A stretch of 64,000 nt of DNA from Halomonas sp. 'Soap Lake #6' (GTDB taxonomy: Bacteria; Pseudomonadota; Gammaproteobacteria; Pseudomonadales; Halomonadaceae), in contig NZ_CP020469.1 of the NCBI RefSeq assembly GCF_003031405.1, positions 4,092,001 through 4,156,000 of the forward strand, read 5' to 3'. Positions 6,619 through 10,675 of this stretch are shown piece after piece. The notes under the pieces are model-generated. The model was not told where the DNA came from, ran no database searches, and saw only the letters and a list, made by a program, of their open reading frames with translations. The translations under genes were made by a program, and so were the position numbers. Position 1 is the stretch's first letter, and every line of letters begins with the position of its first letter.

Positions 6619-7344
6619 ATGGATATTACGAGCGATACCCACAGCCAGCATATTTCTCGTCAGTTCAACCAGGAACTGGAAGAGTTAAAAACCCACCTGA
6701 TGGCCATGGGCGGTTTGGTGGAAAAACAAGTTCAGGATGCGGTGTATTCATTGCTAGAAGGCGATAGTCATCTCGCCGAAAAAGTGCGTGATAACGACCG
6801 CCAAGTAAACGACCTGCAACTACAGATAGATGACGAGTGCACCCGCGTACTGGCGCGCCGTCAGCCAGCGGCTTCTGATCTTCGTCTGGTGCTGGCGGTC
6901 ATTCGCGCTACCTCTGACCTTGAGCGTATCGGCGATGAGGCTAGCAAAATTGCCCGCAACGCGATGCTATTAAGTGAAAACAACGGCAATACTCGTGGTT
7001 TGGTGGAAGTGCGGCACATCAGCGAACATGTACGTAAGATGCTGCGCGATGCTCTAACTGCGTTTGCCCGTTTTGATACCGAGCTAGCCATGCAGGTAGT
7101 CCGCGAAGACGAGCTCGTGGACGACGAGTACGGCAGTGCCATGCGCTCTCTAATGACCTTTATGATGGAAGATTCCCGCTCGATTAGCTCTGTGCTCAGC
7201 ATTATGTGGGTACTGCGCGCCCTGGAGCGGGTGGGCGACCATGCCAATAACCTCGCAGAGTACGTGGTGTATCTTGTCAAAGGACTGGATATTCGCCATA
7301 CCGACCTCGACAGTTTAGATCAGAAGGTGCTTAAAAAGTCTTGA
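6619..7344 (+). CDS. phoU: Phosphate signalling regulator PhoU
   Basis: PhoU (241 residues) links the Pst transporter to the PhoR kinase and restrains the Pho response when phosphate is ample. The protein is two PhoU repeats, each a three-helix bundle: an N-terminal one with DDECTRVLARRQPAASDLRLVLA and ERIGDEASKIARNA, and a second with ALERVGDHANNLAEYVVYLVKG. The repeated E-R-[IV]-G-D metal/helix motif is clear in both. GGAG is located about 9 bases before the ATG. It is the last pst gene, with phoR/phoB 2 kb away on the opposite strand. Confidence 0.95.
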   Translation: MDITSDTHSQHISRQFNQELEELKTHLMAMGGLVEKQVQDAVYSLLEGDSHLAEKVRDNDRQVNDLQLQIDDECTRVLARRQPAASDLRLVLAVIRATSDLERIGDEASKIARNAMLLSENNGNTRGLVEVRHISEHVRKMLRDALTAFARFDTELAMQVVREDELVDDEYGSAMRSLMTFMMEDSRSISSVLSIMWVLRALERVGDHANNLAEYVVYLVKGLDIRHTDLDSLDQKVLKKS

Positions 7345-7398: not shown

Positions 7399-7414
7399 AT
7401 AAGGAGTGAGTACT

Positions 7415-8134
7415 TTGGATGCATTTACCGCGCTAAGTCGAGGAACTCGGCTGGTATATCAAAAGGGCCTGCGGCGTTATATTTTCCTGCCTATCCTGGT
7501 CAATCTTGTGGTTTATACCAGTATGCTAGGCATCGTAGTTAACCGTTTTTCTGGCTGGCTAGACAGTGCTATGGCAATGGTACCCAGCTGGCTTGAGTGG
7601 CTATCCTGGCTAATTTGGCCGCTATTCTTTGTTAGCCTACTGCTAATAGTATTTTTCACCTTTACCCTGATAACCCACCTGATTGCCGCACCATTCTATG
7701 GCTTTCTTGCTGCCCAAGTAGAGCGCCAAGCGACAGGCCGTGAACCTTTAGACGACCGTGGGCTGGCTAAAACCGCCATCGATGCCGTGGGACGCGAGCT
7801 GGTAAAGCTAGGCTATATCCTGCCACGCGCAGCGGCGCTGTTCATCATTAGTTGGATACCTGGGCTTAATCTATTTGCGCCAGTGCTATGGGCGCTGTTT
7901 TCTGCCTGGATAATGGCCATTACTTACTTGGACTACCCAATGGATAACAACAAAATAACCTTTCAGGATATGCGCGGACGACTGTCTCGGCGCTGGTGGC
8001 AAAGTTTGACTTATGGGGGGTTAGTCACAGTAATAACGTGGATTCCGCTGGCAAATTTATTCTTAATACCGGGAGCAGTAGCTGGGGCCGTTTTTATGTG
8101 GGATCACCATTACCGCGGTATTCTTGCCAAGTAA
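7415..8134 (+). CDS. cysZ: CysZ-like (EI24 family) membrane permease
   Basis: The 239-residue inner-membrane protein has hydrophobic segments around residues 25-45, 60-95, 135-165 and 205-230. The opening LDAFTALSRGTRLVYQKGLRRYIFLPILVN and the stretch LIAAPFYGFLAAQVE match CysZ, a sulfate uptake channel/transporter of the EI24 fold. A GTG at 7406 is in frame but overlaps the ribosome binding site. The TTG at 7415 sits 8 bases after AAGGAG (7401-7406) and is the better start. The gene follows phoU after a perfect hairpin, so its expression may be partly separated from the pst operon. Confidence 0.82.
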   Translation: MDAFTALSRGTRLVYQKGLRRYIFLPILVNLVVYTSMLGIVVNRFSGWLDSAMAMVPSWLEWLSWLIWPLFFVSLLLIVFFTFTLITHLIAAPFYGFLAAQVERQATGREPLDDRGLAKTAIDAVGRELVKLGYILPRAAALFIISWIPGLNLFAPVLWALFSAWIMAITYLDYPMDNNKITFQDMRGRLSRRWWQSLTYGGLVTVITWIPLANLFLIPGAVAGAVFMWDHHYRGILAK

Positions 8135-8159
8135 GCAATTTGTTCAAGAAACTTTTTCC

Positions 8160-8256
8160 AGAATTTTTTCAAGAACTTGTTCAAAAACTTGTTCAAAAAA
8201 CTATTCTTTCCAAGACAATCTACTCTTTCCAAGACAATCTATTCAACAAGCAATCT
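8160..8256 (+). repeat. Two kinds of short tandem repeat after cysZ
   Basis: The stretch first shows a 12-base unit AACTTGTTCAAA repeated about twice with a third partial copy. Then a 19-base unit is repeated twice (8203-8221 and 8222-8240, differing at one base) with a partial third copy to 8256. The DNA is AT-rich and non-coding. It looks like replication-slippage duplication in the spacer between cysZ and the minus-strand small RNA. Confidence 0.8.
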
Positions 8257-8272
8257 ATTCGATAAACGCTCA

Positions 8273-8303
8273 GAAAAAACTAGACCTCGCCTGAGCGAGG
8301 TCT
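8273..8303 (-). terminator. Intrinsic terminator of the small RNA
   Basis: The stem AGACCTCGC/GCGAGGTCT has a 4-base loop. On the minus strand it is followed by A-G-TTTTTT (8274-8279). In the plus direction no T run follows, so it assigns the transcript to the minus strand. Confidence 0.85.
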
Positions 8304-8476
8304 GGTTAACTCTTACATTGGACGGTACCTAGCGTTAGCTTCCTCTCCTTTTGCGGGACTCCAACCATGGAATTAACCCTGACTAACGCATTGTACGTCG
8401 CTTTATTCATCCTTTGAATCGATGAGCATCCGTGCAGTGGGCATCCTTGCCCCTTATATTGCTCACTCCTAAGCGT
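8274..8476 (-). ncRNA. Candidate CsrB/RsmZ-type small RNA (CsrA-sequestering)
   Basis: Read on the minus strand, this 200-base intergenic stretch carries seven GGA motifs. Three sit in hairpin loops: GGGCA-AGGA-UGCCC (8439-8452), GCA-CGGA-UGC (8426-8435) and AUUCA-AAGGA-UGAAU (8405-8419). GGA in a small loop is the established CsrA/RsmA binding site. A longer domain is closed by GCGUUAG (8383-8389) pairing with CUAACGC (8332-8338) and encloses three more GGA sites. The RNA ends in a 9-base-pair hairpin, AGACCUCGC/GCGAGGUCU (8282-8303), followed by AGUUUUUU, a proper terminator only on this strand. No coding frame explains the conservation-like structure. The exact 5' end is uncertain, and no confident GacA/UvrY box was found upstream. 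Confidence 0.72.
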
Positions 8477-8532
8477 AAGAGTTATTTACTACTCTGTAAA
8501 GTTACTCATCATAATTTAACACTATTTAACAA

Positions 8533-8584: not shown

Positions 8585-8905
8585 TTAAGACCCGCTGTTC
8601 TCTTCAATAACATCTTCGGGCGTATATTCAGCATCGCCACTAGTGTTCGTTGAGTCAGGATCATCAATAACATCTGTGCCTTTAGTGCCATGGTCGGTTG
8701 TCAAATCTTCAGCATCGTAGTTACGCTCATTCTCATCATCGTAACCGTGTGAATCTGTTTCCATCGGCTGCTCGTCAGCCGTCATACCCTGGTTTTGGTC
8801 AATGGATGGATGTTCAGTAGTGTCGGCGAAAGCTAGTGGACTAGCCATCAAGCCAAAAGACACACCTAAAATGCCAGCTTTCTTGAGTAGTTCCTTGGAT
8901 ATCAT
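8585..8905 (-). CDS. Small, very acidic exported protein of unknown function
   Basis: The 106-residue product has a clean signal peptide (ISKELLKKAGILG, hydrophobic core, cleavage near LAFA-DT at residue 27). The mature 79 residues contain about 25 Asp/Glu and only two or three basic residues, with no hydrophobic core and no cysteine, so it is probably unfolded or ion-binding. The start at 8905 is fixed by AGGAGG 6 bases upstream; the longer frame to 8959 has no such site. Acidity of this kind suits a periplasmic protein of a halophile. I recognise no family. The candidate small RNA lies just downstream on the same strand. Confidence 0.7.
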   Translation of the reverse strand: MISKELLKKAGILGVSFGLMASPLAFADTTEHPSIDQNQGMTADEQPMETDSHGYDDENERNYDAEDLTTDHGTKGTDVIDDPDSTNTSGDAEYTPEDVIEENSGS

Positions 8906-8965
8906 ATTCCGCCTCCTCGATCGCTGCTTAATACCGCTAATTTCAAGGAAGAGTGCCATATAGGC

Positions 8966-8998
8966 TTACCAGTTCCAGCGGTTATCTTCCTTGCTCAT
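8966..8998 (-). CDS. Possible 10-residue mini-gene MSKEDNRWNW
   Basis: This ten-codon frame ends in TAA and has a strong ribosome binding site, GGGAGGTG (9006-9013), 7 bases before the ATG. It sits 60 bases upstream of the acidic-protein gene on the same strand, with AT-rich promoter-like DNA before it. It may be a small protein, a leader frame, or chance. No family is known to me. Confidence 0.35.
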   Translation of the reverse strand: MSKEDNRWNW

Positions 8999-9013
8999 GT
9001 AGCTGCACCTCCC

Positions 9014-9328
9014 GTGCCACTTTCCAAAATTAAAAATTAAAACAATAAAAATCAATATCTTAAAGAAAAAAGAGACGATTAAAAAGAACCACACTGAGCA
9101 CTTTCAAAGCTTCTGGAATGGCTAAAAATGACACATGAGTAAGGCTTAACCATAGTTGGCTGACAGTTAGGCACACCTATCCAAGTGTTATCTTTCACAA
9201 AAAAATAAACGCGCCAAATACCATGCACTTTGAGAAGTGGGTACACAAAAAAGCACTTATAAAGAAAGTAGCCTAAAAGAGGATATTTAAAACAAGCAGC
9301 CCAAAGGAGTGCACTTAAGCGGAGAGAG
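9014..9328. other. AT-rich intergenic stretch with no convincing gene
   Basis: Between the end of phoR and the mini-gene this region is clearly AT-richer than its surroundings. A 101-codon minus-strand frame reaches into the phoR 3' end but is rich in Cys, Phe and Tyr, has no ribosome binding site, and resembles nothing, so it is not called. The part at 9015-9080 is very A/T-rich and may hold the promoter of the minus-strand genes below it. Confidence 0.5.
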
Positions 9329-10675
9329 TCATTGATGAATGACTCGCGTGATGGGAAACACACAGCGGAACTGCGCGCCTTCACCTGGGCAGGATGTTAT
9401 ATGCAACTGAGCATCGTGGCGCAGCAGCACATGTTTGACGATGGCCAAGCCTAAGCCAGTGCCTCCAGTAGCGGTACTGCGCCCTTTATCCACTCGATAG
9501 AAGCGCTCTGTTAGCCGTGGAATATGCACAGGATCAACACCTTCGCCATTATCTTCCACTTCTATATAAGCGCTGCCGTTCTCCATTGTGGTCCAGCGAA
9601 GGGTTATTTGACTGCCCACTGGCGTATAACGAACCGCATTAAAGGCAAGATTTGAAACTGCGCTGCGTATTTCCGGCTCGCTACCTATTAATTGCGCTTC
9701 AGTCTCAATGATTACCTGTACGTTATGCGTCTGACTACCATGCTGCTTATGACTACCATGCTGCTTATGACTACTATGCTGCTGGCCGGATAGCGCTACA
9801 GCATCCCGACGAATACTCTCAAGCAAGGACTTAACATCGAGTGGCTGGTGGTCTTTCCCACCTTGGTCAATTTCCAGCCGTGATAGCAGCAGTAGGTCAT
9901 TAACTAGATTTTGCATCCGTGTAGTTTGCTCCTGCATCTGGCCTATTCCTCGACCTAACCGTGGAGGCAACTGATCGCTTAAGTCACTATAGGTTTCCAA
10001 ATAGCCTGAAAGCACCGTTAGAGGTGTACGCAGCTCATGGGAAACATTCGCGACAAAGTCCCGCCGCATCTGTTCAAGGCGGTGTAAACGGGTAATATCC
10101 CGAGCCATCAGCAAGCGCTCATCGTCTCCGTACAGGGTGATTTGATACTGTAGAATGCGGCGCTCATCAATCGGTGAGGTAAGCGTCAGCGGTTCCCCAT
10201 ACTCACTGGCATTGAAATAACTGATAAAGCGCGGATCACGCAGCAAGTTGGTAATATGCTGCCCACGGTCATGGGCTGTTTGTAAGCCCAACATCTCTGT
10301 AGCAGCACTGTTCCACCATTCAAGATCACCGTGACGGTCTAGCATAACCACGCTATCGCGCATGGCTTCCGATGACTCTTGAATACGTGCCAGAGTAGCC
10401 CGCAAGCGGTTTTGGGTAATACGCTGGCTTTTTTGATAACGGTAGAGTCGGTCAAATAGCTCACCCCACATGCCTCGTGCAGAAGGAGGCTCATCCTGGG
10501 GGTGCAGCGTTAGCCATTGAAATAGCGCCAGCAACTGGCGTAGATGATAAAACAAGCACGCGGCAAGCCCTGCGGCTAAGCCAAACCCGGGCGCGTCCAG
10601 CAGCCAGCCCAGCAGTACCCCTAAGGTAGCCAACCAGGCAATACGCCACAGCTCACGGCTCCACAGGCGCACCAT
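9329..10675 (-). CDS. phoR: Phosphate regulon sensor histidine kinase PhoR
   Basis: The 448-residue kinase phosphorylates PhoB when phosphate is scarce. Two membrane segments lie near the N-terminus (about residues 12-45), then a charged linker and a PAS domain (about 100-190). The H-box RRDFVANVSHELRTPL has phospho-acceptor His213. The ATPase has an N-box (SAVSNLAFNAVRYTP), G1 (VEDNGEGVD) and G2 (GGTGLGLAIVKHV). An unusual SHKQHG repeat (about residues 303-314) lies between the dimerisation and ATPase parts. The ATG overlaps the phoB stop by one base (TAATG), so the two genes form one operon. Confidence 0.95.
   Translation of the reverse strand: MVRLWSRELWRIAWLATLGVLLGWLLDAPGFGLAAGLAACLFYHLRQLLALFQWLTLHPQDEPPSARGMWGELFDRLYRYQKSQRITQNRLRATLARIQESSEAMRDSVVMLDRHGDLEWWNSAATEMLGLQTAHDRGQHITNLLRDPRFISYFNASEYGEPLTLTSPIDERRILQYQITLYGDDERLLMARDITRLHRLEQMRRDFVANVSHELRTPLTVLSGYLETYSDLSDQLPPRLGRGIGQMQEQTTRMQNLVNDLLLLSRLEIDQGGKDHQPLDVKSLLESIRRDAVALSGQQHSSHKQHGSHKQHGSQTHNVQVIIETEAQLIGSEPEIRSAVSNLAFNAVRYTPVGSQITLRWTTMENGSAYIEVEDNGEGVDPVHIPRLTERFYRVDKGRSTATGGTGLGLAIVKHVLLRHDAQLHITSCPGEGAQFRCVFPITRVIHQ
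9722..9784 (-). repeat. In-frame 18-base tandem repeat inside phoR
   Basis: Two full 18-base units, each encoding SHKQHG, with flanking partial copies (HSSHKQHGSHKQHGSQTHN). It falls in the linker before the ATP-binding domain. The unit length keeps the reading frame, so copy number could vary without destroying the kinase. Confidence 0.8.

Follow-up and report, generated by a model that had tools for sequence, protein, structure and literature searches.

A conserved, terminator-ended RNA element with GGA hairpins in Vreelandella, a candidate CsrA-sequestering small RNA

A conserved RNA element between cysZ and an acidic exported-protein gene

We analyzed a window of 64 kb from the genome of Halomonas sp. 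'Soap Lake #6' (G000:C1:4092001-4156000; the genome is 4.80 Mb in one contig) and identified in it a conserved, structured RNA element that ends in a terminator. The proposed small RNA of ~195 nt would be encoded on the minus strand at 8277..8471 of the window, where a −10-like element suggests the 5′ end and a conserved terminator-ended block marks the extent. It lies, as a preliminary description of this DNA had it, between a CysZ-like permease and an acidic exported protein. The convergent neighbor on the plus strand (7406-8134) is the sulfate transporter gene cysZ (NCBIfam NF003433, 265.9 bits vs a cut-off of 140), whose product has its closest named relative in Vreelandella nigrificans (96% identity, in a comparison from which records very near the window genome may be left out). 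Just upstream of the RNA, on the minus strand, is a small gene for an acidic exported protein of 106 aa (8585-8905) with a signal peptide judged by eye; a Pfam search matched it to no family. Farther out are phoU (6619-7344, plus strand) and phoR (9329-10675, minus strand), both named by NCBIfam. In all counts below the genus is Vreelandella (formerly Halomonas), to which the organism probably belongs, as judged by its CysZ.

There are seven GGA triplets on the minus strand of the element, with first bases at 8469, 8446, 8431, 8412, 8362, 8348 and 8343. The preliminary description had counted seven in about 200 bases, placed three of them in the loops of small hairpins, noted a terminator with a U run and proposed a CsrA-type small RNA; the triplets, the loops and the terminator were all located. 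For the structure we aligned 40 copies from 30 loci (alignment A1, 40 of the 41 nhmmer hits with E ≤ 0.01, with L024_b dropped as a terminator-only match). The core alignment (A2) holds 39 of these 40 rows, L023:2673-2864 having been dropped for an internal deletion, and the 13 rows of group A (A3) gave a 13-sequence consensus fold. The order in group A is four 5′ GGA hairpins, the core and the terminator. In this fold the GGA at 8446, 8431 and 8412 lie in the loops of 3–6-bp hairpins, and the GGA at 8469 belongs to a fourth, likewise small, hairpin. When the proposed RNA is folded alone at minimum energy, two of these GGA hairpins appear and the others do not.

The first of the three loop hairpins (8439..8453, minus strand, as for all features of the element) keeps its loop AAGGAT, and one of its stem pairs is G-C in 10/13 sequences and A-U in 3/13. 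The second (8426..8435, GCA-CGGA-TGC) has its GGA present in all 12 other group-A sequences, and in the third (8404..8420, GATTC-AAAGGAT-GAAT) the GGA register differs by one from sequence to sequence. The conserved core (8332..8389) consists of an outer covarying stem of 7–8 bp, an inner GGG/CCC stem and a TCCA..TGGA hairpin. Its unpaired AAAAGGAGAGGAAG has two GGA, both kept in all group-A sequences; in the group-A consensus fold the unpaired part that follows TCCA..TGGA is AAAAGGAnAGGAAG. The intrinsic terminator (8303-8272, i.e. 8272..8303 on the minus strand) has 9 pairs followed by T6; 100% of its cells are paired and 2 pairs are changed on both sides among the 13 sequences.

The 13-sequence fold has 97.0% of cells paired, as compared to 30–48% in slid structures. 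Eight pairs are changed on both sides vs 3.3 in shuffles, the covariation is 0.159 vs 0.116, and on 4 of 5 measures none of 500 shuffles is as high; the remaining measure, further pair types, does not exceed the shuffles (426/500 reach the observed value). For the 39-row core alignment, 92.0% of cells are paired vs 89.4% in shuffles (0/500 as high) and 29–44% in slid versions. A search by covariance, proposed in the preliminary description, finds compensatory stem changes among the 13 relatives. The GGA triplets are also selectively retained. With L001, L003 and L011 as reference, mean retention of GGA in the other 12 group-A sequences is 0.82, 0.93 and 0.80, as compared to 0.39, 0.45 and 0.33 for other unpaired triplets (permutation p 0, 0 and 0.0001; 20000 permutations) and 0.53, 0.59 and 0.45 for all other triplets (p 0.006, 0.00005 and 0.005). 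Two single GGA are out of register, one of L001 (0.08; in the 8404..8420 hairpin) and one of L011 (0.0). Loss of the GGA-loop hairpins in relatives would have spoken against the element, and the loops are conserved. We regard the conservation evidence as decisive: the conserved, terminator-ended, structured RNA element is real.

Over the 40 copies the mean number of GGA is 6.65 vs 4.57 in dinucleotide shuffles. Minimum-energy folds of these copies have 1.88 GGA-bearing hairpin loops per RNA vs 0.30 in shuffles, with at least two such loops in 26/40 copies vs 3.3% of shuffles. At the window locus, GGA with an A in the preceding two bases reaches 6 per 200 nt, the highest density in the 64-kb window on either strand (0.06% of stretches), and the fold is stable (z −3.7, 1/200 shuffles as low).

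The long closing stem of the preliminary description fared less well. Its complementarity is present in the window sequence (8483-8475 with 8316-8308), and relatives do not support its conservation: 67.2% of cells are paired vs 65.5% in shuffles, 113/500 of which are as high. The stem exceeds its slid versions (29–47%) because about 8 of the 13 relatives share it. With shuffles pairing almost as well, we rejected it as a conserved feature. Its 5′ side overlaps TACGCT at 8477-8472, a possible −10 element on the minus strand (8472..8477), and TACGNT occurs at exactly the same place in 23/40 copies. A possible −35 element, TTTACA (8495..8500, minus strand), would precede it with a 17-nt spacer; many relatives have TTGCAA or TTACAA, often 16–17 nt before TACGNT. 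The RNA may therefore start near 8470, downstream of the 5′ side of the closing stem. It is conservation that points to this possible TTGCAA..TACGNT promoter, and a scan for the sigma-70 consensus found no promoter at the proposed start and one site inside the RNA. Because the locus lies between phoU and phoR, the upstream region was also scored for a Pho box; the result was not convincing (6.5/10 vs 6.3 in shuffles, with 15% vs 5% scoring at least 8).

Distribution of the RNA and association with the exported-protein gene

A DNA search matched 31/58 genomes, the window's own included: 30/37 of the same genus, with one 34-bp match outside it. R1, a covariance model that was built from 39 rows for the 109-nt core, matches 69/275 genomes of the family, comprising 69/82 of the genus and 0/193 of other genera; 30 of the 69 matched genomes had supplied rows of the model. 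With laxer filters R1 found a match in 0/30 genomes that had lacked one (13 of the genus and 17 others), an empty result that would show nothing alone, but the same model gave the 69 matches above. In a 390-genome sample of the order, searched with strict filters, there were 6 matches, all of the genus. By these searches the window RNA is genus-specific. The window locus is the one place matched in its own genome. Among 98 loci around cysZ, R1 found 52 copies in 38 loci, and 21 of the 69 matched genomes have two copies, on one contig and the same strand and 0.3–2.1 kb apart. In six loci named Halomonas or Billgrantia (L128, L131, L133, L164, L168 and L160) phoR follows cysZ without the exported open reading frame (ORF) or the RNA between them, and in V. 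rituensis (L146) and V. zhuhanensis (L126) other genes lie between cysZ and phoR. In one relative a group II intron RNA match (RF02001, 152 bits) is found just downstream of the RNA (L009:1864-2038). In the window, the interval from cysZ to the RNA terminator (8136-8265) contains short A/T-rich imperfect direct repeats.

In 40/52 copies of the named loci the core is preceded by an ORF whose start resembles a signal peptide and whose mature part is acidic; the ORF ends 44–148 nt (median 72) ahead of the core. The mature parts have a median net acid of 20 in 75 residues. Both copies follow such an ORF in 10/14 two-copy named loci, usually one of each paralogue type (with ends like GDGNVW and EENSGS); the ORF test failed for both copies in L113, L159 and L104 and for one copy in L110. 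The pairing of each copy with its own paralogue type makes gene and RNA look duplicated together, and the exported-protein gene and the window RNA may share one terminator. Homologues of the exported protein outside the genus, sought as a guide to a counterpart RNA, are weak (best 3.6e-8).

The proximity of this ORF favors an alternative to CsrA binding, namely that the element acts chiefly as a base-pairing small RNA of the Hfq type or as a stability element in the 3′ untranslated region (UTR) of the exported-protein mRNA, with CsrA binding absent or secondary. The terminator with its U run would suit such a function, as would the fact that the most conserved part of the RNA is the core, with its hairpin loop lacking GGA. 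The selective retention of GGA argues against it. Furthermore, in four named loci (L119, L125, L109 and L139) the gene directly upstream is phoR, with no exported ORF in between, and the RNA is kept, indicating that the RNA is not only the 3′ UTR of the exported-protein gene. We consider this explanation unlikely, though the best of the alternatives.

A paralogue of the acidic exported protein is encoded elsewhere in the genome (L193, G000:C1:3191625-3191840, minus strand), and its 3′ UTR contains a GGA-loop hairpin (AGCTCATGGATGAGCT) followed by a terminator. It is a possible minimal version of the exported-gene and GGA-RNA arrangement. The leader of the exported-protein gene in the window (8906-9030, minus strand) has, by eye, a possible 10-codon ORF, MSKEDNRWNW, and a stretch rich in purines, found again ahead of the start codon in relatives (translated GIKQRSRR).

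The Csr circuit and a GGA-rich RNA between eno and fdxA

A search for csrA gave a single match in the genome (120.6 bits vs a cut-off of 73). The uvrY gene adjoins uvrC and its product is 56% identical to that of E. coli (NF007018, 294.7 vs a cut-off of 280). A BarA-like kinase is matched along its entire length (residues 5-906) at 34% identity; BarA is its best NCBIfam model, yet the score is below the cut-off (643 vs 890). The UvrY/GacA box is given as TGTAAG-N6-CTTACA, with TGTGAGAGATCTCTTACA as the repeat at E. coli csrB, in excerpts from PMC4682653 and PMC4950607. In none of the 40 copies do the 300 nt upstream of the window RNA contain such a box (best 9/12), and the mean score upstream of these copies is 7.6, as compared to 7.8 for mononucleotide shuffles.

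A pattern of three GGATG, sought in 5 genomes, occurs at two places in the window's own genome, the window element and G000:C1:2825020-2825050; a reversed GGATG pattern, used as control, hit one place. The second place belongs to another candidate RNA, which lies outside the window in the eno-fdxA interval (G000:C1:2824879-2825285; L199, L202), is rich in GGA (10 in ~175 nt) and ends in a terminator. Its 31-nt pattern is identical in G001, and as a single sequence it does not fold with unusual stability (z −0.84). The sequence TGTAAGAGATCTCCTACA, ~200 nt upstream of its first GGATG, is a UvrY/GacA box at 11/12. We scored the box at 25 of the 30 loci that match best, all of the genus (the anchor motif was not found in 5), and it is 12/12 in 23/25 and 11–12 of 12 in 25/25. 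A 407-nt query from eno-fdxA matches 199/275 genomes of the family, 78/82 in the genus and 121/193 in other genera, the matches outside the genus covering mainly the RNA half and some only its 3′ end. Sixteen stretches of other genera, picked among the listed hits and not at random, have best box scores of 11/12 in 8, 10/12 in 7 and 9/12 in 1, as compared to a mean of 7.8 in 320 shuffles, none of which reaches 11. The same stretches have 10–13 GGA per 180 nt. Judged by sequence, the eno-fdxA RNA is likely the Gac-controlled Csr RNA of the family, and it is perhaps a stronger finding than the window RNA. In Pseudomonas, rsmZ also lies beside fdxA.

The preliminary description had assigned the window RNA to the hub of the Gac/Rsm or BarA/UvrY circuit, which would make it the UvrY/GacA-controlled CsrB/RsmZ RNA of the organism. 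Its CsrA-type anatomy and the presence of BarA, UvrY and CsrA agree with such a role, but the box is missing from the 300 nt upstream of every copy, and the same genome has a UvrY-boxed GGA-rich RNA at eno-fdxA with matches across the family. Moreover, the eno-fdxA query matches 12 of the 13 genomes of the genus in which R1 found no window RNA (weakest 4e-5). With a box at eno-fdxA and none at the window RNA, direct UvrY control is likely for the former and unsupported for the latter, and we consider it improbable that the window RNA is the hub. Perfect UvrY boxes with one or two partial ones nearby are also found at L232 (G017:C1:1404300-1406300) and L233 (G008:C1:275700-277700). Those of L232 lie just upstream of vgrG (type VI secretion tip), suggesting direct UvrY control.

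Rfam 15 at gathering score gave no Csr/Rsm family for the window and 20 loci, and none was found at relaxed scores in stretches of 1.0 and 6.1 kb. The RsmY model scores 16.6 bits on the window RNA vs a gathering score of 57, and weak matches to istR (E 0.27) and BTnc060 (E 6.9) were taken as chance. With PrrB_RsmZ (RF00166), 0/38 genomes were over the cut-off; eight sub-threshold hits, including that of the window's own genome, resemble, by eye, terminators or coding DNA and not GGA-rich RNAs. This comparison with CsrB, RsmY and PrrB_RsmZ-type models, which the preliminary description had proposed, has low power here: the Rfam Csr/Rsm families match neither the window RNA nor the eno-fdxA RNA, so a missing Rfam match says little.

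A probable CsrA sponge and its published parallels

The retention of GGA, the compensatory stems, the terminator and the single csrA match make a CsrA-sequestering RNA the best reading of the window RNA, in support of the CsrA-type small RNA first proposed. We think it probable that the window RNA acts in this way and is not under the usual direct UvrY/GacA control. The minus strand at 8471-8277 would give a noncoding RNA that binds several CsrA dimers, with contacts through GGA in hairpin loops and through an unpaired A-rich stretch, and that draws CsrA off mRNAs. Transcription would start at a promoter of its own, or the RNA would be the 3′ end of the mRNA for the acidic exported protein, or both, with the two forms ending at one terminator. 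It would then be an extra input to the CsrA pool beside the UvrY-boxed eno-fdxA RNA.

Several observations weigh against CsrA sequestration by a conserved small RNA. The number of GGA is weak evidence alone (7 vs 4.5 in dinucleotide shuffles, p ~0.10). In the 39-row core two of the five measures are reached by shuffles, pairs changed on both sides by 50/500 and further pair types by 30/500. The best conserved part is the core, and its hairpin loop has GG and no GGA, so that another function is possible. In two-copy genomes copy 1 has its first 5′ GGA hairpins replaced by one hairpin without GGA and carries 5–7 GGA. R1 has no match in 13/82 genomes of the genus and in 193/193 other genomes of the family. 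Finally, TACGNT is absent in 17/40 copies (L008, L010, L013, L024, L025, L027, L030 and all ten second copies), suggesting that part of the family may need read-through from the upstream gene or another promoter. That the GGA pattern arose by chance in an intergenic stretch that is conserved but does not function as an RNA, as the p of the GGA count might allow, is very improbable in view of the covariation, the terminator, the conserved loops and the duplication with retention.

A more speculative possibility, which we put forward tentatively, is that the acidic exported protein and a CsrA sponge found across the genus, and not directly controlled by UvrY, evolved as one unit. The RNA would be the 3′ part of the mRNA, gene and RNA would have been amplified jointly, and CsrA would be titrated whenever the exported protein is expressed (salt or envelope state), in parallel to the UvrY-controlled eno-fdxA RNA. 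Two candidate CsrA-antagonist RNAs are now located, one at eno-fdxA with a UvrY box and the genus-specific window RNA without one. Halomonas species serve as industrial hosts, in which CsrA would offer a way to influence carbon storage. The duplication of gene plus RNA is a tractable case for the origin of sponge RNAs.

Among the matches listed in the open-access literature we found no description of a Csr RNA of Halomonadaceae, in agreement with the preliminary description, which knew of none for this locus in the lineage. In the excerpted text of a 2020 review, Halomonas anticariensis has GacS/GacA and its CsrA-antagonist RNA is given as 'Unknown' (PMC7366521). CsrA of H. hydrothermalis has been modelled, with sponge RNAs named only as future work in the part of the article available (PMC12889724), and Halomonas is not mentioned in the main text of PMC5568370.

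Within the genome, the eno-fdxA RNA resembles the window RNA in being GGA-rich and terminator-ended, and differs from it in having a UvrY box ~200 nt upstream and in being matched in other genera too. The closest published parallel that the window RNA appears to resemble is RsmW of Pseudomonas aeruginosa, a likeness drawn by description and not by direct sequence comparison. As described in excerpts of PMC4950607, RsmW likewise has seven GGA, three of them in outer stem loops, and sits on the 3′ side of a small hypothetical ORF; no terminator is predicted to separate the two. It has only a weak GacA site, ~830 bp upstream, and is not activated by GacA; RsmV and RsmW are grouped as Gac-independent and probably of separate origin in a passage of the review (PMC7366521). 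RsmW binds RsmA, whereas CsrA binding is predicted for the window RNA. The two differ in host, locus and length (RsmW has a 120-nt form), and the ORF beside RsmW has many basic residues and is weakly RsmA-like (same excerpts of PMC4950607), whereas that beside the window RNA is acidic and exported. Unlike RsmW, the window RNA is genus-wide and often present in two copies. In this it is like the duplicated CsrB siblings of Vibrio, which were multiplied by gene duplication according to a portion of PMC6262261; unlike in Vibrio, the neighboring protein gene appears to have been duplicated with the RNA.
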